A stretch of DNA of 64,000 bases. Source: Natrialba sp. SSL1. Its GTDB lineage: Archaea; Halobacteriota; Halobacteria; Halobacteriales; Natrialbaceae. The notes under the pieces are model-generated. The model searched no databases. It was given only the letters and a program-made list of their open reading frames with translations, and was not told the DNA's origin. Shown in pieces: positions 21,593 through 35,584 of this stretch. Where the stretch lies: NCBI RefSeq assembly GCF_001861355.1, contig NZ_MASN01000027.1, forward strand, positions 1 to 64,000, written 5' to 3'. The first letter of the stretch is position 1. Each line of letters begins with the position of its first letter. Made by a program: the position numbers and the translations under genes.

Positions 21593-22106
21593 GATCGATT
21601 GACCTCTTGTATTTGTACAGAGGGGCGGAATACGGGTGAGTGATTTTCCTTTATTTGAGGGGGTGTTTATATAGTGGCGTTGTAGGTACCTCCATCGACG
21701 GCCGTTTTCGACGCCGGCTCCCGCGGGCTACTACCGGACGAACCGGATACATTTCGTCCGGGAACACCCATTTGATGCCGACTGATACAATCGTTGTCGT
21801 GTGTTGCCGGTGATTCCAGTCACTGACCTGGTCGTATCACGCTCCGCACTCGCGTGTTGCCGTCAGCAGCTCGGCCAGTTTCCCAACTCGTTGCGAGTGT
21901 CCGGTGACACCTGCCGTCCTCGGTGACCGCTCTCGGTTCGTCGGTGGTTCTGGACCGACGACGACCGATCGAGCGACAGCCTTGCAAGTACCGAGACGCG
22001 CATCCACCCGCCATCGCGTGGCAGTGCTGATCGTCGTGGGGTGTGGCTTCTTCGCTGTAGAGAGTGCACTCCTTCTCAGGAGGGTGTGAGCAACCCGGGG
22101 ACAGTC
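21593..22106. other. intergenic region at the left edge of the accessory segment
   Basis: About 510 bp with the DoxX promoter (21664-21676) at its left. The rest has several short inverted phrases, for example CACTCCTTCTCAGGAGGGTGTGAG near 22069, directly after the stop of the coiled-coil gene, possibly a 3' structure. No gene is supported. Confidence 0.4.
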
Positions 22107-23081
22107 TCACCTGTCGACAGCAGTTGTCGCCGGACTAGCCCGTTTCGCGGTCTCTGTTTCTGTTTCTGTTCCTGTTTCTGCGCCAGTTTCAGTTCCAATT
22201 CCAATCCCAGTCCCTCTTCCTGTCACTGTCCTCTCGCCGGAACTGTCGCCAGGAATCTCCGCATCCGCCATCAGGAGCACGCGTCGTTCGGTGTACTCGA
22301 GTCCGTTCTTGCGCTGGCGCTTCCGTCTGATCGCGAGCCGATGCTTCGAGAGATCGAGCAGGGCGTCGATCGTCCTGGAGACGAGTTTCTTCGCGTAGCT
22401 CTCGCTAATGCCCGTCTCCTGTCTGCGGATCCAGTGTTTCATCTCGCTCGCCGTGACGTATTCGCGAACGCCGGCACAGCCGTTCTCCCAGGGGTTGTCG
22501 CCAACGCCCGGGTCAGTCCGTGCCTTCCAGAGCCGCGCCGCAAGTCGCGACGGCAGCGAGGAGACCGTCGCGTGGAGCATATCGTCGTCCATGGTCGCGA
22601 GTTGCTGAATCGGCAGGAGATCACCGTGTGCGAGCGCGACGTTACCGCCACGCCCGAGCGGGTCATCGCTCTCGGGGAGTCGGAAGTACTGTCTGCCGTC
22701 GTCCTTGCAGATGCGCTCGAGACGGTCATCGGCGACGTCGACCTCGGTTTCGTCGACGTGCGTTTCGAGCAGATGGGCACCCTTCTCGAGTTCGCGGGCC
22801 TGGAGTTCGGTGATGCGCGCTTTGTTCGCGGCGAGTTTCTTCGCGTGGGCGTCCAGTCGCGCCTCGACGGGCGGCTGTGCGTCTTCGAGGTCGTCGATAC
22901 GAGTCCGGAGCCGGTCGTTTGTCGTCCGCGCTCGGTCGAGTGCCGTCTCGAGCGTCTCGAGTCGCGTGTCTTTCTTCTCGAGTTCGTCCTCGAGGGTGGT
23001 CACCCGCTCGCGCAGGGCTTCGAGTTCGGCAGTCAGTGCGTGCAGTGCGTTTGCGTCGGAGTGCTGGTGTTGTGTACTCAT
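22107..23081 (-). CDS. coiled-coil/HTH protein next to the TnpB-like gene
   Basis: 324 aa from ATG 23081. Residues 8-110 form a long coiled coil (ALTAELEALRERVTTLEDEL, LETALDRARTTNDRLRTRID). The middle holds a compact domain (RQYFRLPESDDPLGRGGNVA, LARLWKARTDPGVGDNPW) and then an HTH-like helix pair (YVTASEMKHWIRRQETGISE, SYAKKLVSRTIDALLDL). The tail is a low-complexity Gly/Thr/Glu tract. I know no named family. It lies downstream of the TnpB-like gene on the same strand, 400 bp away, and could be its partner or a replication/partition-type protein of a mobile element. A 91-residue in-frame upstream extension is open but repetitive. Confidence 0.75.
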   Translation of the reverse strand: MSTQHQHSDANALHALTAELEALRERVTTLEDELEKKDTRLETLETALDRARTTNDRLRTRIDDLEDAQPPVEARLDAHAKKLAANKARITELQARELEKGAHLLETHVDETEVDVADDRLERICKDDGRQYFRLPESDDPLGRGGNVALAHGDLLPIQQLATMDDDMLHATVSSLPSRLAARLWKARTDPGVGDNPWENGCAGVREYVTASEMKHWIRRQETGISESYAKKLVSRTIDALLDLSKHRLAIRRKRQRKNGLEYTERRVLLMADAEIPGDSSGERTVTGRGTGIGIGTETGAETGTETETETAKRASPATTAVDR

Positions 23082-23477
23082 GTCTGGTGTGGGGTGGTGT
23101 GTTCGGCGCGTGTAACCGAGAGTCGGCGCTGTGTCGCTGCAGGTGGGTGGTGTGCTGTCGGTCGATGCTGTGTCGTGGGTCGGCGGTGTGTCGCTGGGAG
23201 CCGGTGCTGTCCCGTCGATCGATGCGATTGGTGTGGACACCGGTCGGCGAAAATGGGTGGTCGAACCCGCGGCCGGGTGTTGGTACTGCCGGTGCCACCG
23301 CGGTTTGACGGTGTCGTGCGGTTTGACAGCGTCACTGCGGTTTGCCGGTACCACTGTGGCTTGGCGGTCTCACTGCGAGCCCGTTTGGTGCCGGGTCGGC
23401 AGTGGTTGCGGTGGCGACAGTGGCGATGGCGGTGACAGTGGCGACGGTGGTGATAGTGAAGATCGTAATGGTGGCGA
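23082..23477. repeat. repeat-rich spacer between the TnpB-like and coiled-coil genes
   Basis: This 396-bp spacer carries a run of imperfect 12-bp units of the type ACTGTCGCCACC/ACTATCACCACC (minus-strand reading, about 23395-23490) and, nearer the coiled-coil gene, repeated GTCAAACCGC and GACACCG phrases. A frame of 91 codons in phase with the coiled-coil gene is open across it, but its Thr/Pro/Asp composition follows from the repeats. In TnpB elements the guide-RNA scaffold lies at this place (3' of tnpB), so the spacer deserves attention. Confidence 0.5.
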
Positions 23478-24233
23478 CTACCCATCGTGCTCGCGTCGGC
23501 CACCGTCGGCTACCATCGCGTGTCGCCCATCCGGTCCAGCGTGTTGATCGGGCGATGCGGCGTGTCGTTCGTCCGGCGCAGTGTGTCGGTCGTCCGGCGA
23601 ACCTGAACGGGTCGGGCGATAGGCGCAGCGCTGGCCGGGATAGTACCGCTGGGCGAGCACCTTCGCGGCGTTGCAATCGGCGTAGACGCCGCCGACGTGG
23701 CAGTCGGGGTTCGTACAGCAGACTGTCCGGTTTCGCACCCGCTCACCGATGACGCCGCAGGCGTGACACTCCAGCGAGGAGTACGATTCGGGAACCGTCG
23801 CGACCTCGAGGCGGTACTCGGCAGCGACGGCGCGGAGTCGGCGGTGGGCCGCCGGGAGCAGCCACGCGGTCCCGCGGTGTGCGTCGGGGTCGGTCAGCCA
23901 CGTCCAGAGATCGGGTTCGTGGTTGCTATCCTCGGTTACGAGGACGGGGTCGTCGTAGGCGGTTGCGTACTCGCAGATCGTCCGCGCCGCGGCGTCGATC
24001 GTGGTGTGGATCGCGGCGTGGTGGGCTGTGATAGCCGAGACGATCGTGTCTCGATCGGCCTCGCTGGCGAGGTGGGCGGCGGTCTGTGCGCGGAGCTCGT
24101 CGAGGTGGATACAGACATCGTCGCCGCTGATCACGTACGCGCCGGTCCAGTCCGGCATGGTCACCGGACAGGCGGTGTAGAGGTTGTGTTCGCCGATATC
24201 GACGCCGATCGCGGTGCGCTCGTTAGGCATCGC
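23478..24233 (-). CDS. TnpB/OrfB-derived RuvC-like protein, truncated at the N-terminus
   Basis: 251 aa from ATG 24233 (an ATG lies two codons earlier at 24239). The three RuvC motifs are present: GVDIGEHNL near the N-terminus, VLVTEDSNHEP in the middle, and ADCNAAKVLAQRY near 205, so the D-E-D triad is intact. Between motifs II and III is a TnpB-type zinc finger (SSLECHACG with CCTNPDCHVGG). Full-length TnpB places the first motif near residue 180; here it is at about 10, so the WED and REC lobes that hold guide RNA are missing. The C-terminal 40 residues repeat PD-RHA phrases. It may be an exapted nuclease or a degraded transposon gene. A 75-108-codon frame overlaps its start. Confidence 0.82.
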   Translation of the reverse strand, partial: AMPNERTAIGVDIGEHNLYTACPVTMPDWTGAYVISGDDVCIHLDELRAQTAAHLASEADRDTIVSAITAHHAAIHTTIDAAARTICEYATAYDDPVLVTEDSNHEPDLWTWLTDPDAHRGTAWLLPAAHRRLRAVAAEYRLEVATVPESYSSLECHACGVIGERVRNRTVCCTNPDCHVGGVYADCNAAKVLAQRYYPGQRCAYRPTRSGSPDDRHTAPDERHAASPDQHAGPDGRHAMVADGGRREHDG

Positions 24234-24450
24234 GATCACTGTCCGTCGGCTCGAAGCAGATTGCGTCGTCGCCCGCGACGTGAATCGTGTCGTAGTGGGT
24301 GGCGGGGTCGCGGGTGGGTATTGCTGCGGGGAACTCTGTCGGTGGGCGGGTGGCAGGTGCGTCTGCGCTGTTCTCGTGGCCTGTCTGCTGGCCAGCTATA
24401 CCATCGTCTAGTGGGCAATGTTCATTGCCCCTCGGTTGCTCGTTCTTCAT
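24223..24450 (-). CDS. short ORF overlapping the TnpB-like start (tentative)
   Basis: 75 codons from ATG 24450, ending TAA at 24223, so it overlaps the downstream gene by a few codons. The product is acidic and polar (MKNEQPRGNEHCPLDDGIAG, AGDDAICFEPTDSDRDA), a haloarchaeal-looking composition, but has no known domain. The reading frame is open back to 24549 through the folded element. It could be a small partner protein, a leader peptide or chance. The overlap supports translational coupling. Confidence 0.35.
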   Translation of the reverse strand: MKNEQPRGNEHCPLDDGIAGQQTGHENSADAPATRPPTEFPAAIPTRDPATHYDTIHVAGDDAICFEPTDSDRDA

Positions 24451-24540
24451 GGCTTCTTGAACCCGTGCAGGGATCGGAAGCCAAGTCCGGCGTGTGGGGG
24501 CACGCCGGGCAGTTTTCATGCCCGTACAGACCTGGCTTCT
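24410..24540 (-). ncRNA. candidate structured RNA or leader with a three-way junction
   Basis: Read on the minus strand, 24539-24529 pairs with 24487-24477 (GAAGCCAGGTC with GACTTGGCTTC), an 11-bp stem. Its one non-Watson-Crick pair is G-U on this strand and would be A-C on the other. Inside are hairpin GGGCA-TGAAAAC-TGCCC (5-bp stem, 7-nt loop) and hairpin GGCGTG-CCCCCA-CACGCC (6-bp stem). Downstream, GGCTTC can instead pair with a second GAAGCC that touches ATG 24450, and GGGCAATG-AA-CATTGCCC follows (about 24415-24432). The fold precedes the TnpB-like gene. It could be a regulatory leader, a guide-type RNA or a transposon-end palindrome. Confidence 0.5.
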
Positions 24541-24657
24541 AATCCACATCTTGTAACGCTAGGCACATAATATTTACTGAGAATTGCGCAGTAGATGCTG
24601 GCTTACGAAGAATGAATGCTGTGGGTATAGCATTAACTCCATGTAACCGGGAATACT

Positions 24658-24954
24658 ATGAGTTTAACAGTGAATACCGTACGTAAGATGCGACAGCCTG
24701 CGGATTGGATGGTCCCCAGTGATGATCGAATACTTGAGTTGCTTCGAGAGGAAGGAAACCTCACGCCACAGGCTGTTGAGGATTTTGGAGGTCCCGTTGC
24801 CGGGCACGCAAGTGATCGTCTCCCCGTGCTAGCTCAGTATGGGCTCGTCACGAAAATCTCTAGAGGGCTCTATCGAATCACCGACAGTGGGGAAGCGTAT
24901 CTCGATGAGGACCTCGACGCGAACGAACTCGAGTCGGTTGCAGATTCTGAGTAG
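24658..24954 (+). CDS. winged-helix DNA-binding protein of the phage PhiH1-repressor type
   Basis: 98 aa. The core is a winged helix: ADWMVPSDDRILELLREEGN, then LTPQAVEDFGGPVAGHASDR and LPVLAQYGLVTKISRGLYRI, ending in an acidic tail. Proteins of this pattern are frequent in haloarchaeal proviruses and islands as repressors. It is divergent from the TnpB-like unit, with only about 200 bp between, so it may control either the island or that unit; this is inference from position. Confidence 0.85.
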   Translation: MSLTVNTVRKMRQPADWMVPSDDRILELLREEGNLTPQAVEDFGGPVAGHASDRLPVLAQYGLVTKISRGLYRITDSGEAYLDEDLDANELESVADSE

Positions 24955-25269
24955 AATCTCTTCTCAGAACGCAGTTATCGGATGGTGAACACAGCCCCCA
25001 ACTTTCCAATCCTCGCAGTGACAGTCTAATGTATAGTTGGCGTGAAACATGAACTGAACAATTGCTCTGGGGTCCTTGCGCACAGGTTTCAGTTATACAC
25101 ACGGTCAACCCGCGCTCGTGTGCATATTCAGGAAATGGATTCTGTCGATGTGTAACCCCAAGGATGGGAGGACTGGGATACGTTCTGCGAGCACTATTTC
25201 GGCCAGTGCTCGTTGAAATCCCAGCAGTGGGCAAGAAAGAAGAGTGCTTAGCTATTGAGTCCCTATGAG
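24955..25269. other. intergenic region inside the island
   Basis: About 315 bp with lower GC than the chromosome on the left. No motif-bearing frame or structure was found. Confidence 0.4.
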
Positions 25270-25728
25270 CTACGGTTTGGACTCCAAAGTCTCATTTTCT
25301 GAGGGCATTCGAATCAGTTCGGTATGGAGAATCCTTTGACAGTTAGGGCAGAGTAAATCCTCGTATACCCATTCGTTCTCCTGTCTTAATTGAATTTCAG
25401 GGTTCTCTCCTTCGAGGTCACAATCTTCACACGATAGTCTATCTTGCCGGTCCTGGGGATTGTCGAGTTCAACAAAAGCAATCGTCGTTATTGTGTCCTC
25501 ACCATCTTCATAGCTGTCTGCAGTCACCCTACACTCTGCTGAAGAGAACTGACCCGAATATCGAGCGGCGACAGCTCCTGAGATAATTTCTTCATCAACA
25601 TAGTCTACCTCCGAAAGTGCGGCCCTCAACTCGAGAATCCCAATGTCATCGGTAAGTGGCCCTGGACCATCGGCAGGGCTAATTTCTTTTAGAGTGTTTT
25701 CCGACTCGGACCAACTAACCTGAACCAT
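25270..25728 (-). CDS. zinc-ribbon protein of unknown function
   Basis: 152 aa. The C-terminal third holds CEDC, then after 26 residues CPNC, the knuckles of a zinc ribbon (RLSCEDCDLEGENPE and DLLCPNCQRILHTEL). The N-terminal two thirds are acidic and mixed alpha/beta without a known motif. Codon use is more AT-rich than in flanking chromosomal genes, fitting an acquired island. No partner is obvious. Confidence 0.7.
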   Translation of the reverse strand: MVQVSWSESENTLKEISPADGPGPLTDDIGILELRAALSEVDYVDEEIISGAVAARYSGQFSSAECRVTADSYEDGEDTITTIAFVELDNPQDRQDRLSCEDCDLEGENPEIQLRQENEWVYEDLLCPNCQRILHTELIRMPSENETLESKP

Positions 25729-25823
25729 AGAGAGACAGCATATCTCCAGAGGTATCTAGCTTTTTCAGGAAACATGACAATTCGCCGCTTTGAGTAAGCG
25801 TCTACGAGACGGGGTTAGGCCGC

Positions 25824-26354
25824 CTACGTAGAGTTGCGAATCGCTTCGATGCCGCGTTCGGTGAGGCGGTATCTGTTCGGTTCCGCCTTCACCATCAGGA
25901 TGCGCTTCTTGACAGCGTTGTTCACGACTCGGATGACCTCTTGCCAGTTGCCGAAGTCGACATCGCTGAGGTCGGCTGTCACGCTGTTGCGGTCGAGAAC
26001 TTGATCCGCCATCTCGCGCAGATCCGCGGGAGAAACACCAGTGACCTTCTCCCCAGCGTCCTCATCGGCGTTGCGGTCGAGAACGAACGCTGAACCGCCG
26101 CCTTGGCTCACTTTCACTAGGTAGCCATCCTCGTCTGTGATCTTGTTGAGGAGGTTTGTGGTGGTCTGAAGCGTGGCCTCCTCCTCGGAGTCATCCGCCT
26201 CGATGACGCTCGACATGTCCTCGTAGTAGAGGACAGCGTTGAGCTGACTTCGAGCGAACTCATCCGATAGTTCGTCCTGCTTGGCCACTGCGGCCTTCAG
26301 GAGTTCGCGCCGCTTGTCCGTGAGGTCTGAAACCTCTGTGATTGCTTGGGTCAT
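25824..26354 (-). CDS. uncharacterised haloarchaeal protein with C-terminal wHTH-like end
   Basis: 176 aa from ATG 26354 (MTQAITEVSDLTDKRRELL). It is helical and acidic. The last 50 residues (NWQEVIRVVNNAVKKRILM, PNRYRLTERGIEAIRNST) look like a winged helix with its wing strand. I recognise no family. Its upstream side is the hairpin-dense segment at 26395-26520, which may be its leader. Confidence 0.7.
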   Translation of the reverse strand: MTQAITEVSDLTDKRRELLKAAVAKQDELSDEFARSQLNAVLYYEDMSSVIEADDSEEEATLQTTTNLLNKITDEDGYLVKVSQGGGSAFVLDRNADEDAGEKVTGVSPADLREMADQVLDRNSVTADLSDVDFGNWQEVIRVVNNAVKKRILMVKAEPNRYRLTERGIEAIRNST

Positions 26355-26394
26355 AGTTGAGCTGGTTTCCGAGCAGGACAACGTTCAAGACACC

Positions 26395-26520
26395 CCGGCC
26401 CGAACAAGCGACTGTTCGGGCAACAGTGCCGTCTGTTGCCTGCGTCGGCTGGCATTTTGACCCGGCACCCGGCTGGGCGCCAACCTGTTGCGGGTGCAAA
26501 CGGGTCAGCCGACGACGCGG
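26395..26520. ncRNA. hairpin-dense segment, candidate structured RNA or cis-acting DNA site
   Basis: Three perfect hairpins stand in series: CCCGAACA-AGCGAC-TGTTCGGG (8 bp), CAACAG-TGCCGT-CTGTTG (6-7 bp), and a long one with outer arms CGTCGGCT/AGCCGACG, then GACCCG/CGGGTC and GCACCC/GGGTGC separated only by an AAA bulge. Nearly every base of the 125 bp is in a stem or short loop. All pairs are Watson-Crick, so the strand cannot be told. It may be a small RNA, the leader of the minus-strand gene ending at 26354, or a DNA site such as a plasmid-type origin or integrase site. The function is unknown. Confidence 0.5.
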
Positions 26521-26664
26521 TTCTTGACTCCCACGCCGCTAGCTATCCACTAGGGTGGGGTGTACTTAGTTCTTTTGTGGAAGATAGTCTGATTTGACGA
26601 GCCAGTAGGGCGTAATTGTTAACACCGTGGCCCCACAAGAAGATGGCATAGCCGAAAATAGACT

Positions 26665-27354
26665 ATGGCACCCGAGACACCAATCATTCCCGACGACGAA
26701 AGAGATAGGGGTGTACTGACACCAGACGACAGAAAATTCCTCAAAGGCGAAAAAGAATATCAGAGTGAACAGTCTGAAAGAGATGCCAGATACAGAATTA
26801 GAAGCCGAATCAAAGATGCAATCTTAGATTTCAGTATTTTACTACACCACTTGGATAGGAACGATCGAGAACAGGTTTTCTCTACCTATGAAGGCATAAG
26901 TGGATTGTCAAATAATAGTGACGAGCTTTCGGGGGAAGCTTTCCGAGAGTTTGTTGAGTCCACTATGTTCCAAAATGGTATTTCAGACGCTATCTCGTTC
27001 TTTATATTGGGAATTGAGGATACCAACGAACCGGTGGATTCCATGCTCGAGACTGGTATCGAAGGGGCAGAGGAGGAAAAGGGATATCTCGTTGATGAAG
27101 TCACGGTTGAAATCTCAGTCAAGAGGAAGAAGCCGGAACTTGAGGTGCTCCTCGAAAAATTCGAATCAGGTGAGCCACTGACTGAAGATGAACTTGAGGC
27201 AGTGATTAGATCTGGAGAGATCGAACTTGATGCGGGGACTTTGGACACGCTGTTTGAACGGGTAAGCGAATCGCTTTCAGAGGATATAGAGAACGGGGAC
27301 GCTACGATTAATATTGATATAGCAGATGAAGATGAGGATGAGGATGAAGAATGA
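26665..27354 (+). CDS. uncharacterised acidic island protein
   Basis: 229 aa. The N-terminal half is helical and charged (RYRIRSRIKDAILDFSILLH), the C-terminal half has repeated acidic helices (LTEDELEAVIRSGEIELD) and ends in a run of Asp/Glu. No catalytic motif or named family. It converges with the TGT-like gene, with only 2 bp between the stop codons. Low GC and AT-ending codons mark it as island DNA. Confidence 0.75.
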   Translation: MAPETPIIPDDERDRGVLTPDDRKFLKGEKEYQSEQSERDARYRIRSRIKDAILDFSILLHHLDRNDREQVFSTYEGISGLSNNSDELSGEAFREFVESTMFQNGISDAISFFILGIEDTNEPVDSMLETGIEGAEEEKGYLVDEVTVEISVKRKKPELEVLLEKFESGEPLTEDELEAVIRSGEIELDAGTLDTLFERVSESLSEDIENGDATINIDIADEDEDEDEE

Positions 27355-27356
27355 TA

Positions 27357-28610
27357 TTAGGGGTTGAATTCAGTTATTGAACAGTTTTCGACTTTTTTGA
27401 CGTAGATTTTCACTCCCTCCCTCCATTCTTCCAGATGGTCCGCGGTGGCGACTGATTCGGATTCTCCCAGTGCCTCTCCAAAGGTGTCTTGCCTCTCCTC
27501 AAGTTCTTCTAGTAGATCTTGTAGTGATTTCTTTTCTACATCATCCTGCTGCTTCTCTCTGATTGCGGCATAGTGCTGAGCAAGACGCTTCTGCTCATCT
27601 GCAACCGCATAGATATCTTTCCAACCTTCCATCCAGTCTCTACAAACTCTGCAGTCACACGGTTCGGTGTGATCTTCTCCCAATTGAACCGCCTCAGCGA
27701 TACCTACGAATTCTTTGATTGGTTCGAAGTAGTAGCGGGAGGCTCCACCACCTCCTCCGTCCTGTGATTTCAGCTTCTCTGATGCTGACTCGCTGTAATT
27801 GATACCGAACCCAGTTCCCTGAAGTCCAAATATCGAGAGCAGGTTAGAGAAATAGCTTCCGTAGAAAAAATGCGGTGCAACATCTTGGTCGGAGATTCGA
27901 CTGACCAAGTCTACTGTGCTTACATAGTGACCTCTACTGGATTCTCTCTTATCGAGGCCTTCAATCCAGAGGAAGACCTCATTGATTGGAGCATCACCAA
28001 GGTAGTTAGCGAGTCCTTCTCTGAAGTTCACGTCAGTTACCAAACGCCGTTTCATAAAGATGCACGGCTTTACTGGATGATCTGTATATTCAACCGTATC
28101 TGAGATGATCTGCTTGTTGTATTCGAGGTCTTTCTCAGTAGAGAGTTTCACGTACCACGGTATAACCGCTTTTGGGAGCAAATCGTATTCAGCATCCGAT
28201 AGCGAGTACCTCTTGAGTGTTGAATCAGCATGCTCGTCAAGAATCTCCAGTTGGAAATCCACAGTCGTTTCCACGACATTCCTTTGATTCTCACGGCTAA
28301 GATCTTGATAACGTAGATTACCTTCCTCCTGTATTTTACTAACTACGATATCTTCATAGAAATCCACCAATCTGTGACTCCATTGTTTCAGATTCCCGGA
28401 GTCTTCGAGGAAGTTATCCCCTTCTCGAAAAGTTGGCAGGTAAGGATTGATGTAATATTCTTGCTCCAGATTTGAAACACGACCTGAAACCTGCTCTGCG
28501 TGTTCTATGGCGAAGTGAGCCGGGATGATGAGTGAGTCGATATACTCAGAGGATCGATCTACTGAGGGGCCTTCACCGGGATGATTGTAATGGAGACTAT
28601 TTTCGAACAT
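27357..28610 (-). CDS. TGT/DpdA-like protein with CxCxxC-x22-H zinc signature
   Basis: 417 aa from ATG 28610 (a GTG precedes). The C-terminal part has PCDCRVCRDW followed 22 residues after the last Cys by QHYAAIREK, the CxCxxC...H zinc site of tRNA-guanine transglycosylases and of DpdA, which inserts deazaguanine bases into DNA. The preceding region (NEVFLWIEGLDKRESS, PHFFYGSYFSNLL, GTGFGINYSES) has alternating strands and helices compatible with the TIM barrel. I cannot place the catalytic Asp pair, so the family call rests on the zinc site and fold pattern. It is the last gene of a tight three-gene operon, overlapping the nuclease-like gene by 14 bp. It could be a divergent DNA- or RNA-modifying enzyme. 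Confidence 0.55.
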   Translation of the reverse strand: MFENSLHYNHPGEGPSVDRSSEYIDSLIIPAHFAIEHAEQVSGRVSNLEQEYYINPYLPTFREGDNFLEDSGNLKQWSHRLVDFYEDIVVSKIQEEGNLRYQDLSRENQRNVVETTVDFQLEILDEHADSTLKRYSLSDAEYDLLPKAVIPWYVKLSTEKDLEYNKQIISDTVEYTDHPVKPCIFMKRRLVTDVNFREGLANYLGDAPINEVFLWIEGLDKRESSRGHYVSTVDLVSRISDQDVAPHFFYGSYFSNLLSIFGLQGTGFGINYSESASEKLKSQDGGGGGASRYYFEPIKEFVGIAEAVQLGEDHTEPCDCRVCRDWMEGWKDIYAVADEQKRLAQHYAAIREKQQDDVEKKSLQDLLEELEERQDTFGEALGESESVATADHLEEWREGVKIYVKKVENCSITEFNP

Positions 28611-28992
28611 CACGTAGTATATATTCGTTTATCCGGGAGGTTGCGTGGTCACTAGTCTCATTCTTATTGGGAGTTGATAAACATTTCACTTGATCACTCA
28701 CAGATAACAGACCGATGTCGCACTGCTCAATTCGGCTGACAAGGTCCTCGGTGGCATATTCCTCCCAAACGGAGAGGTATGAGTAATTAACAAGAGTCTG
28801 GTTCCTCTCAGCTTGTTGAATTCCTCGCTTAAAATCTTTAGTCTTCAGTTCGACTGATACTGTCTCTTTACCATTGGTTCCCAGAATATCGATTGGAATA
28901 GAGTAAAGACGCGACTCCGTCATAAACTCAAACCCTTCCTTTTCAAGATATTCTGCTACAATCCCTAGCTGGTACTTCTCTGGCCAATACAT
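28597..28992 (-). CDS. PD-(D/E)XK-like nuclease domain protein
   Basis: 131 aa. A hydrophobic strand with Asp (SIPIDILGTNG) is followed by VSVELKTKDF and GIQQAERN, the D-x(n)-ExK-Q order of the PD-(D/E)XK nuclease fold. The protein is small, as many single-domain resolvase- or restriction-like members are. It starts 2 bp after the stop of the Panacea-like gene and overlaps the TGT-like gene, so the three are co-translated. A role in cleaving foreign or unmodified DNA is inferred from this pairing. Confidence 0.6.
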   Translation of the reverse strand: MYWPEKYQLGIVAEYLEKEGFEFMTESRLYSIPIDILGTNGKETVSVELKTKDFKRGIQQAERNQTLVNYSYLSVWEEYATEDLVSRIEQCDIGLLSVSDQVKCLSTPNKNETSDHATSRINEYILRDVRK

Positions 28993-28994
28993 CC

Positions 28995-29501
28995 TCAGTC
29001 CAAGACTTCGTCCTTAATTTTCGAGTTTTTGGTGTATTCAGGGTACTGATTGTAGACGTATTCAAGAAGTTCGTCGAGTTCGAGATTAGAGTATTCCTCG
29101 ATTATTTCGTCTATCTCAGATTCAACACTGTCATCCATGGCTTCCTCTAGTTTCTTGGTTATTTTGTGACCCTTCTCAGTCATCACGAATTGTTTCCCTG
29201 AATACTGGCTTTGATCTTCATTATCCCGTATCTCGTCAACCTCTGAATCGGGTGAGACCATCTCAATAGCATCCACTGCCAAGAGGAACTCGATAGCGTT
29301 GTAGATTTCCTCGGAGAAAGGCCCGTAATCGTAAGCCTCAAACTCGAACGTAGCCTTCTCGTGGATGTCAGAAAACTCAGTTTCCTCTTGGATTAAGAAA
29401 AACAACTTCTGAAGCCGTGTCACCCCTTCAACAGAGTCCGCATGGTGGAGGAGAATGAAAGCGAGGTCTTTCTGGCGATCTATGGTATCTATCTGTGCCA
29501 T
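28995..29501 (-). CDS. Panacea/DUF4065 (SocA/YwgA)-like protein
   Basis: 168 aa. The segment VEGVTRLQKLFFLIQEETEF followed by FEFEAYDYGPFSEEIYNAIE matches the core of the Panacea/DUF4065 group, in which a Lys-rich helix precedes a GPFS/GPV turn; family members often act as antitoxins or as specificity modules in accessory systems. The C-terminus is acidic and helical. It heads the operon with the nuclease-like and TGT-like genes. A TATATCTC box near 29566 lies about 65 bp upstream. Confidence 0.65.
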   Translation of the reverse strand: MAQIDTIDRQKDLAFILLHHADSVEGVTRLQKLFFLIQEETEFSDIHEKATFEFEAYDYGPFSEEIYNAIEFLLAVDAIEMVSPDSEVDEIRDNEDQSQYSGKQFVMTEKGHKITKKLEEAMDDSVESEIDEIIEEYSNLELDELLEYVYNQYPEYTKNSKIKDEVLD

Positions 29502-29976
29502 GATGGGTCTCTGGTGTTGATGGTATTCACCCGGCAGACAAAATTGTTCCCCTCCTCAGAGATATAGATTCATTCAAATGACGATTCGAACATCTCGTGA
29601 TTAAAAGTACGATTTGATCTCACCCCCGTTTCGTGTGCTTCACCTGGAATCCTGCTGTGCGAAAGCGGGACAGGGACGCTGTAATTTTTGCGCTGCCCTC
29701 TTGAGGACAGTGCGGAGGCGGGGCGGTTGATTTGTAACCTTGGCCTCAGCCACAATCCCCGTCTCAAAATGCGTGTCTCTTCTCAACTCGAGTACCCGGC
29801 ACATCTACAAACCCAACTGATTCGAAATTTCGGCTGCCAGATCGCATGTACGTCCCCCTCAATCCTCGATACTACAGCCGTCCCTACTATAAACAAGCTC
29901 GAACAACACACACAATCACGGACCACCTTGGGGACAACACATCACCTTCTCTGAACACAACCCTAGAGTAAGTACC
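29502..29976. other. intergenic region at the right edge of the island
   Basis: About 475 bp. It contains the operon promoter on the minus strand. GC content rises toward the right, where chromosomal genes resume. I looked for a tRNA gene or an attachment repeat and found neither. Confidence 0.4.
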
Positions 29977-30826: not shown

Positions 30827-32599
30827 TTACGTTTCATCGGGATTGCGGTCGCGGTTGTGCTCGTGACTATGCTCGTCATCGTGGTTGCGCTCACCCTCGT
30901 GCTGGTGGTGGTCGTCGTGCTGGTGGTCGTGTCCGTGTCCGTGTTTGTGGTCGTGTTCATGCCCATGGTCATGCTGGTGCTGGTGCGTCTGTTGATCCTG
31001 CTGGTGGTCGTGGTTATGGTCATGTCCGTGATCGTGGCCGTGTTCATCGTCGTGCCCGTGCCCGTCTCCGTGTTGATGACCTGCCCCGTCGGGCCCGTGC
31101 CGAGTAAACGGTCCCGAAAACGCGCGGTCGACGACTTCCGACAGCGCGGGGTGGACGTGCACTGACTCTCGAATGTCCCAGACGGTTCCGGTGCCCGCTT
31201 TCATCGCGACCACGACCTCCTCGATGAGCGTCGGCGCATCGGGGCCGACGATGTGACAGCCGAGAATCTCGCCGCGTGGCTCGATGAGGACCTTGACGAA
31301 CCCTTCGGCGTGCATCGCCTGTCCGCGCGCCGTGTCCCCGTACTGGTACGTCGCCGTCGCATACGGCCGTTCCGCCTCGCGCAACTCCTGTTCTCGCATC
31401 CCGACGCCGGCGACTTCCGGGGAGCCGAACACCGCGAACGGCATCGCCGTGTAGTCGACCGGTTCCAACTCGTCGCCGAACAGGTTTCGTGCCACGGCCT
31501 GTGCCTCGTGGTTCGCGTTATGTTTCAACAGATACTCGCCGACGATGTCACCGAGCGCCCAGATTCCCTCTGCCGTCGTCCGAAGGTACTCGTCGGTTGC
31601 GACGAACCCCTGCTCGTCGGTTTCGACACCCGTTGCGTCCAGATTCAGCGTGTCCGTGTTCGGCCGGCGTCCCGCTGCGACGAGGAGCGTCTCGCCGCTC
31701 ACCGTGAGCGCATCTCGGCCGTCAGGATCGTCCCACGCCGGCGGGTACGGTCGCGCGTCGACAGTTATCCCCTCCCCGGTCTGGCCCTCTCCGGCCTGCG
31801 AGGCACCGACCGCCTCGTAGCCCGTGTACACGTCGAACCGGTCGGCGTATTGCTCGGTGACGGCATCCCCAACCTCCTCGTCTGCCTGGGGGAGCAACCG
31901 CGGTCGCCGGCCGATGATCGACACATTGCTTCCGAACGTCCCGAAGAAGTGTGCCAGTTCGACTGCGATGTAGCCGCCACCGATGATGACCAGATCGTCC
32001 GGCGGCGTCTCGAGTTGCAACGCCTCCGTACTGGTCAGATACTCCACGTCGTCGATTCCCTCGATAGCTGGAATCGCCGGCCGCGTTCCGGCCGCGATGA
32101 GGACGGTCTCCCCGCGCACTCGCACACCGCTGTCGGGGCCGCTGACGAGTTCTACCGTCCGGTCGTCGACGAAGCGCCCCTCGCCCTCGAGAAGGGTGTG
32201 CTGCCTCGAGGACCGGAGCCCCTGCTCGATCGAGTCGGCGCTCCCTGACACGTCGTCGGTCACGTCGCGAACGATCTCGGCGAACTCGATGTCGGTGACG
32301 TCGGCGTGGATGCCGAACTCATCGGCGCGCTCGATGGTGGTCAGCACCTCGGCATGGTACAGCAGTTTCTTCGAGGGGATACAGCCGCGATTGAGGCAGG
32401 TGCCGCCGAGCGGTCCCTTTTCGACGACGGCGACGGACTGACCCTGATTCGCTGCGACGCTCGCGACATCGAGGCCGGAGCCGGAGCCGATGACGAGAAA
32501 GTCGACCGTCTGTGGTTCTGATTCTGCCGACGTCTCCGTCTTTGATTTCGTCACTGACGTTGCCTCTGATTCAGTTTCGACTCCCGTGTCCGTTCGCAT
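30827..32599 (-). CDS. Lpd/MerA-type pyridine nucleotide-disulfide oxidoreductase with His-rich tail
   Basis: 590 aa from ATG 32599. FAD-binding VIGSGSGLDVAS (about 36), redox-active GGTCLNRGCIPSKK (about 66-79), NAD-binding IIGGGYIAVELA (about 194), and the dimerisation end with HVHPALSEVVDRAF, whose HxxxxxE is the catalytic base pair of lipoamide-type reductases. After it come about 75 residues of His, Asp and Gly (HGHDDEHGHDHGHDHNHD), a metal-binding tail. It probably reduces a low-molecular-weight disulfide or a metal ion; the tail suggests metal handling. There are no 2-oxo-acid dehydrogenase genes nearby. Confidence 0.88.
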   Translation of the reverse strand: MRTDTGVETESEATSVTKSKTETSAESEPQTVDFLVIGSGSGLDVASVAANQGQSVAVVEKGPLGGTCLNRGCIPSKKLLYHAEVLTTIERADEFGIHADVTDIEFAEIVRDVTDDVSGSADSIEQGLRSSRQHTLLEGEGRFVDDRTVELVSGPDSGVRVRGETVLIAAGTRPAIPAIEGIDDVEYLTSTEALQLETPPDDLVIIGGGYIAVELAHFFGTFGSNVSIIGRRPRLLPQADEEVGDAVTEQYADRFDVYTGYEAVGASQAGEGQTGEGITVDARPYPPAWDDPDGRDALTVSGETLLVAAGRRPNTDTLNLDATGVETDEQGFVATDEYLRTTAEGIWALGDIVGEYLLKHNANHEAQAVARNLFGDELEPVDYTAMPFAVFGSPEVAGVGMREQELREAERPYATATYQYGDTARGQAMHAEGFVKVLIEPRGEILGCHIVGPDAPTLIEEVVVAMKAGTGTVWDIRESVHVHPALSEVVDRAFSGPFTRHGPDGAGHQHGDGHGHDDEHGHDHGHDHNHDHQQDQQTHQHQHDHGHEHDHKHGHGHDHQHDDHHQHEGERNHDDEHSHEHNRDRNPDET

Positions 32600-32728
32600 A
32601 CAACTTGGACACTGCCCAGCCAAATCAAACTCACAGGCACTCGAGTACCGGCGGGTGAGAGTATCGAGCATCGGAAACTGAGATACTCGCCGATCGAACG
32701 CAGCGACAGGGATCGAGAAGAGCTCCTA

Positions 32729-34786: not shown

Positions 34787-35584
34787 ATGGTGTTGGTCGA
34801 ACAGCTCGCGCTGGTCTTTTTCGCTGGACTCGTGACGGCGCTCGCCACCGGCCTCGGTGCACTCCCGTTTTTCTTTTTCGACGAGATCAGCGACCGCCGA
34901 ACCGTTCTCCTCTGGGGGTTTTCGTCGGGAATCATGCTCTCGGCGTCTGTTTTTGGTCTCCTCGATGAGGGGTTAGCCGAGGGAACCGTCCTCGAGATCA
35001 CCCTCGGTATGGGGGCGGGCGTGATCCTGGTCGTCATCGCGCGAGACGTGCTGCTCGACGCCGAGATTGATCCGCGCGAGTACGAGCAGGCTGATTTCAC
35101 CAAACTCGTGCTCATCCTCGGGGTGTTGACGGTGCACAGCTTTCCCGAGGGAGTCGCGGTCGGTGTCGCGTTTGCCGACCTCGGACTCGAGGGTGGGTTT
35201 TCGATTCTCGGGTTTTCCGTGCCGTTGTTGGCTGTTTTCATGACAGTCGCGATTTCGATTCACAACGTCCCCGAGGGAACGGCGATCTCCATCCCGCTGC
35301 GATCAATGGGTGTCGCCAACTGGAAACTCGTCTGGTGGGCGGTCTTCTCGAGTCTCCCCCAGCCAGTGGGCGCGGTTATGGCGTTCGCGTTCGTTCAGAC
35401 GGCACGGGGGTTTCTCGCGATTGGGTTCGGGTTTGCTGCGGGTGCGATGATCTATCTGGTCCTCACCGAATTCGTTCCGGAGGCGCTCTCGATCGGCGAG
35501 CGATTGCCACGCGGTGGGAAGCCAGAACTCGCCGCTGGGGCCATCCTCGGTCTCTTGCTTATGGTGCCACTCGCAGCGATCTGA
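34787..35584 (+). CDS. ZIP family divalent metal transporter
   Basis: 265 aa with eight predicted TM helices. The metal-site motifs HSFPEGVAVG (about 117-126) and HNVPEGTAIS (about 158-167) are those of ZIP transporters in helices 4 and 5. It moves Zn2+ or similar ions into the cytoplasm or between compartments. A His-rich cytosolic loop is absent. It reads away from the regulator gene, with about 260 bp between. Confidence 0.92.
   Translation: MVLVEQLALVFFAGLVTALATGLGALPFFFFDEISDRRTVLLWGFSSGIMLSASVFGLLDEGLAEGTVLEITLGMGAGVILVVIARDVLLDAEIDPREYEQADFTKLVLILGVLTVHSFPEGVAVGVAFADLGLEGGFSILGFSVPLLAVFMTVAISIHNVPEGTAISIPLRSMGVANWKLVWWAVFSSLPQPVGAVMAFAFVQTARGFLAIGFGFAAGAMIYLVLTEFVPEALSIGERLPRGGKPELAAGAILGLLLMVPLAAI

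Follow-up and report, generated by a model that had tools for sequence, protein, structure and literature searches.

What kind of system is encoded by three closely packed genes that differ so sharply in base composition from the archaeal DNA around them? The genes lie in the window, the 64,000-nucleotide stretch of Natrialba sp. SSL1 DNA that was analysed here. The original prediction, made from the letters alone, took them for a possible modification or defence system that pairs a base-swapping transglycosylase with a nuclease. We examined the layout, relatives, predicted structures and genomic surroundings of the three proteins, named P1, P2 and P3 in the order of the operon.

A tight three-gene operon in a low-GC island

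All three genes are on the minus strand. The operon opens with P1 (28995-29501, 168 aa), a Panacea/SocA protein of the DUF4065 type, followed after a gap of 2 nt by P2 (28597-28992, 131 aa), a protein with a predicted PD-(D/E)XK nuclease fold. P2 overlaps by 17 nt with P3 (27357-28613, 418 aa), a member of an unnamed family. The GC content of this island is 44-47%, compared with 58-66% in its surroundings. The open reading frames, their spacing and their base composition thus bear out the tight operon in a low-GC island that had been predicted. The window contains no tRNA genes, and Rfam gave no match within the island.

A fourth gene, P4 (26665-27354, plus strand), runs convergently towards the trio and belongs to a haloarchaeal family with no Pfam name. 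It is kept beside the trio only in the three closest relatives. We dropped P4 as a fourth component because its family is common in haloarchaea, being found in 48 of 97 genomes.

A Panacea protein and a predicted PD-(D/E)XK nuclease

P1 matches the Pfam family PF13274 (SocA_Panacea) with 28.9 bits and thereby passes the cutoff of 25.7, in agreement with the DUF4065-type domain originally assigned to the first gene. A P1 homologue is present in every intact trio. PADLOC matched PDC-M19A and other models to P1, which we read as shared-domain matches only.

The AlphaFold (AF2) model of P2, built from three input sequences, has a mean pLDDT of 87.8 and a pTM of 0.83. Its elements run in the order helix, three strands, helix, strand, corresponding to an alpha-beta-beta-beta-alpha-beta core. 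A Foldseek search against the PDB returned 3dnx as the best match (E 9.3e-8, TM 0.75), followed by SfsA and AF1548 and, with weaker scores, by Hjc, Ecl18kI and PspGI, all of which we take to be PD-(D/E)XK proteins. The catalytic core is made up of D35, E48-L-K50 and Q60, which sit on the expected structural elements of the model, and E48, K50, Q60 and A61 are invariant across the alignment of 15 P2 homologues. Together, the predicted structure and the conserved residues confirm, at the level of a model, that P2 has a PD-(D/E)XK nuclease fold with an intact core motif, and the D-ExK-Q core that had been read from the sequence is located in it. P2 shares fold and core motif with 3dnx (SPO1766), SfsA and Hjc, but is only 12-22% identical to them, is near a minimal core and is tied to P3. 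The P2 profile also retrieves other haloarchaeal proteins with an ExK...QA pattern.

P2 and P3 are strictly co-inherited on a mobile trio

To what extent do the three genes belong together? P3 homologues occur in 12 of 391 haloarchaeal genomes, sampled class-wide, and represent 11 genera. At full length, the P2 profile matches proteins of these 12 genomes and of no others in the set; elsewhere it gives only partial, weaker matches to nuclease-like proteins. Since P2 and P3 share these genomes, are found at full length in no others of the 391 and lie next to P1, a chance association is excluded. Every intact haloarchaeal locus has the order P1-P2-P3, among them those on three Haloarcula plasmids. 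A more distant version, on plasmid pSI-1 of the soil bacterium Arthrobacter, keeps this order but has a membrane-protein gene after P1; its P2-like protein was identified from the motif and an alignment. A Kocuria plasmid was considered as a further carrier and rejected, as its P2 match is weak and no annotated trio surrounds it.

The original prediction had named homologues that are never found together as one outcome that would speak against it. The opposite is seen, with the genes adjacent in all cases but one, a locus split by an insertion sequence in genome G227. Here, P3 is divided over two contigs (L029:7844-10121 and L030:6407-7904), and a copy of a transposase-like gene, 100% identical between the two, lies at each half. 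P1 and P2 persist beside the broken P3, which shows just that the module can decay.

The pairwise distances of P1, P2 and P3 correlate with one another (r 0.62-0.83, Mantel p 2e-4), and do so within haloarchaea alone (r 0.62-0.81); both sets of values include the effect of shared host ancestry. The presence of the trio is patchy, and several plasmids are among its carriers. These observations show that the trio is mobile and that P2 is strictly co-inherited with P3.

The zinc module of P3 resembles that of archaeal TGT

We aligned the window P3 with 14 homologues that are 22-43% identical to it, giving 15 sequences. P3 had no match beyond chance in Pfam, PADLOC, NCBIfam, PHROGs or the PDB sequences, PF01702, the family of tRNA-guanine transglycosylases (TGT), matched none of the 15 members at E<=1, and P3 was not found in viral contigs or phage records. 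The best profile matches to PDB entries, namely designed PPR repeats and an RNA polymerase subunit, were judged to be composition artefacts.

The C-terminal part of P3 carries the CxCxxC-x22-H site that had been noticed originally, formed by C319, C321 and C324 and, 22 residues on, by H347. This site is complete in 13 of the 15 aligned sequences and absent in those of locus L022 and Arthrobacter. H347 is invariant in the 14 full-length sequences, as are E275, R293, Y295 and W397, four residues with no assigned counterpart in TGT.

Searched with the P3 profile, 35 of 41 TGT-family proteins, which are interrelated sequences, outscored their own reversed copies, and the displayed alignments pass through the zinc module. 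Profile-profile comparisons of P3 with sets of TGT and haloarchaeal DpdA-like proteins gave probabilities of 15-79% (P 2e-3 to 2e-5), compared with 0.7% or less for the reversed controls. When the four metal-ligand columns were masked, the probability fell to 0.5% or less. With the site masked or removed, the best local alignment that remains for three of the four TGT sets, which share sequences, begins near column 234-236 and keeps the register seen before masking. Profiles of phage DpdA showed no relation to P3.

The catalytic residues of TGT are not recovered in the same way. In the weak alignment, the nucleophilic Asp of TGT (FDSS) falls on a variable, non-acidic position of P3; no Asp is invariant across the P3 alignment, and the DSGGF and FDSS motifs are absent. 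An SxVxFQ stretch of P3 was tried as the counterpart of DSGGFQ and dropped because it looks helical in the weak structural model. This AlphaFold model, computed from three sequences, has a pLDDT of 38.7 and shows predicted beta-alpha repeats at about residues 150-250; Foldseek listed many barrels for it, with TGT at ranks 28-49, none of them significant.

Judged by these sequence comparisons, the likeness of P3 to TGT is real for the zinc module and is unproven elsewhere. P3 shares the CxCxxC...H module and a local profile match with archaeal TGT and haloarchaeal DpdA-like proteins (PF01702), but differs from them in full-length similarity, in the two sequence motifs and in the Pfam match. We do not call P3 a TGT because the likeness is limited to the zinc module and the nucleophile falls on a non-acidic position. 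Of the assignment to TGT/DpdA, the zinc module therefore stands, as it is picked out above reversed controls, while the enzyme does not: masking removes the signal, PF01702 is not matched, the nucleophile position is non-acidic and the fold is not recovered.

One possible explanation is that P3 is unrelated to TGT, having a convergent zinc motif on another beta-alpha fold and an activity of its own, possibly Glu-based. The loss of the signal on ligand masking, the low ranks of TGT among the barrels and the four invariant residues without a TGT counterpart are all in line with it. On the other side stand the 35 TGT-family sequences that beat their reversed copies and, weakly given the shared sequences, the register kept after masking. 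We regard this explanation as possible, though on the doubtful side; it is compatible with the model favoured below.

The base exchange originally suggested, in which P3 would place a deazaguanine in either DNA or tRNA and P2 would cut whatever is left unmodified, fared worse. It could account for the metal site in 13 of the 15 P3 sequences and for the likeness between the P3 profile and the zinc module of archaeal TGT, and a preQ0-type substrate may be available, given that the host genome has genes for a TGT of its own and for an ArcS-like protein. However, the nucleophile position of P3 is non-acidic, no Asp is invariant, no member matches PF01702, and two members are without the zinc site. 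Likewise, no PADLOC Dpd model, whether for DpdB/DpdC or for the restriction partners, matched the trio or the scanned neighbours. The Dpd-like logic of base swap and nuclease is thus not upheld, and we consider this explanation very improbable. Like the Dpd 7-deazaguanine modification-restriction system, the trio combines a nuclease with a zinc module of the TGT type within a single operon, but it is without the TGT nucleophile and matches to Dpd partners, and it includes a Panacea protein.

A model for a Panacea-controlled nuclease

We propose, at about an even chance of being right, that the trio is a mobile, Panacea-controlled nuclease module that is targeted by P3 and serves defence or addiction. 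The model draws on the Pfam match of P1, the fold and core of P2, the co-inheritance of P2 and P3, the covarying distances, the patchy spread and the restriction neighbours described below. P2 would be a metal-dependent PD-(D/E)XK effector that cleaves nucleic acid. P3, its obligate partner, is most likely nucleic-acid-binding and may bring P2 to the substrate, a targeting role suggested by the weak resemblance to TGT. P1 would act as an antitoxin-type protein that keeps the P2-P3 complex silent. Upon the arrival of a virus or other invader, or upon loss of the element, P2-P3 would be released, with defence or addiction as the outcome. Kurata et al. 2022 (PMC8832971) describe Panacea as a domain that neutralises many unrelated toxins by direct binding. 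Since Panacea proteins are widespread, P1 beside a nuclease could also be a plain regulator. If the model is right, Panacea proteins control not only single toxins but also a nuclease made of two parts. The trio adds an unnamed family of ~420-residue proteins to the haloarchaeal defence neighbourhood.

It is tempting to go one step further and to speculate that P3 is a TGT-derived, catalytically dead protein that reads guanines, whether modified or specific ones, in tRNA or viral DNA and delivers the Panacea-checked PD-(D/E)XK nuclease to them, the membrane-protein variant described below having lost the metal site. We think this specific form unlikely. If P3 were such a reader, a tRNA-modifying fold would have been reused for immunity, and the trio would stand for a so far undescribed class of immune effectors that read bases.

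A related alternative is modification-dependent restriction of a type IV-like kind. Here P3, TGT-like but catalytically dead, would read a modified base of viral DNA, be it 7-deazaguanine or another, and P2 would cut the DNA so marked. A TGT-like zinc module with a missing nucleophile is what would be expected of a reader. Haloarchaeal Druskaviridae encode a preQ0/G+ pathway (PMC8651126), and HVTV-1 carries a deazaguanine modification (PMC6884629). Against this, three of the 12 trio genomes also have a third, DpdA-like TGT, and H. sinaiiensis has both the trio and a plasmid locus with TGT, QueD and QueE. The trio can therefore share a cell with such genes, and the idea that it excludes a host DpdA was rejected. 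The trio also has no NTPase motor. We rate this alternative as improbable.

Restriction neighbours and a membrane-protein variant

Two Haloarcula plasmids have a type IIG-like restriction-methylation gene that shares the strand of P1 and stops ~70 nt upstream of it (L016:897-3968 and L017:60-3971), and in L016 a SIR2 gene neighbours the trio as well. Three more loci have other restriction genes near the trio, type IIG in L022, type II in L023, and type I together with type IV in L026. These neighbours, seen in other genera, are guilt by association, not proof. They would suit a guard of restriction-modification (R-M): P2-P3 would then be a suicide effector that cuts RNA or DNA, kept in check by P1 and let loose once the R-M enzyme next to it is inhibited; PrrC is the comparison case for this idea, and a TGT-like protein could bind tRNA. 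However, no R-M gene adjoins the trio in the window or in several other loci, the partner enzymes are of different types, and PD-(D/E)XK enzymes act mostly on DNA. We find a guard function quite improbable and retain the Panacea-controlled nuclease as the preferred model.

Two loci have an additional gene between P1 and P2 that encodes a membrane protein of 195-200 residues (L022:7032-7619, a haloarchaeal locus, and L018:3323-3925 in Arthrobacter). Each of the two proteins has a hydrophobic segment at the N-terminus and two more at the C-terminus, and no sequence similarity is detectable between them. The loci with the inserted gene are exactly the two whose P3 is without CxCxxC. This association comprises two cases noticed after the fact and is a lead only.

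Transglycosylase genes were also seen at two other plasmid loci. On pHsi139 of Haloarcula sinaiiensis (L123:1-9070), QueE, a QueD-like protein, an EVE protein, TGT and a BREX ATP-binding domain protein are encoded together, possibly as a haloarchaeal Dpd-type system. On a Haladaptatus plasmid (L122:5944-10643), two long genes for tRNA-guanine transglycosylases lie close to each other, with TFB and TBP genes in the vicinity.

Comparison with known systems

A close parallel is PanTA (Kurata et al. 2022, PMC8832971), in which, as in the trio, a Panacea protein is tightly linked to a conserved partner in several species; the trio differs in having two obligate partners, where PanTA has one toxin. 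The P1 of the trio on pNG400 (WP_049938427.1) is one of two plasmid-encoded Panacea proteins named in the main text of that paper, which makes no mention of a transglycosylase; the pair may be present, without description, in its Dataset S1. BRC systems with TGT and GNAT (PMC12839542) are comparable in that a TGT is proposed in a defence locus, but contain HerA/FtsK, PglZ and STAND, none of which is in the trio. No paper combining DUF4065 and transglycosylase was found in the open-access literature searched. The trio looks like an undescribed nuclease system under an antitoxin-type protein, although the locus may be listed in the data set of Kurata et al. We take it for a variant of Panacea-linked systems.

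The trio lies in a variable cargo segment of Natrialba genomes

The trio, P4 and two small genes make up a variable segment (25173-29617), and other genes are found between the same boundaries elsewhere. The conserved left boundary (25091-25172) contains an inverted repeat, TATRCACACG...CGTGTGCATA, and is present in 2-3 copies per Natrialba genome; similarity across the eight aligned loci stops sharply at about 25172. The conserved right boundary (29618-29770), aligned from nine loci, forms a TGTCCCC-TTG-GGGACA stem-loop in most copies and occurs 1-4 times per genome. In sister genomes, the alternative cargo between these boundaries measures ~0.8 kb (G032) and ~3.5 kb (G163), and a second site in the genome of the window holds ~2 kb. 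The low-GC island is thus explained by the trio segment being swapped cargo between conserved boundaries.

The boundaries, a repeat on the left and a stem-loop on the right, are part of a recurrent frame (21840-25172 and 29618-29770) that also encodes a coiled-coil protein, a winged-helix protein and a TnpB-like protein whose TNB domain is Cas12f1-like. The frame encloses different cargo at several Natrialba sites and looks like a cargo-exchange hotspot or a cassette system of an unrecognised kind. Elsewhere in the window, reading of the sequence suggests an FAD/NAD disulfide-reductase-like protein that ends in a long His-rich tail (30827-32671) and, near its gene, a ZIP-like membrane protein (34787-35584).
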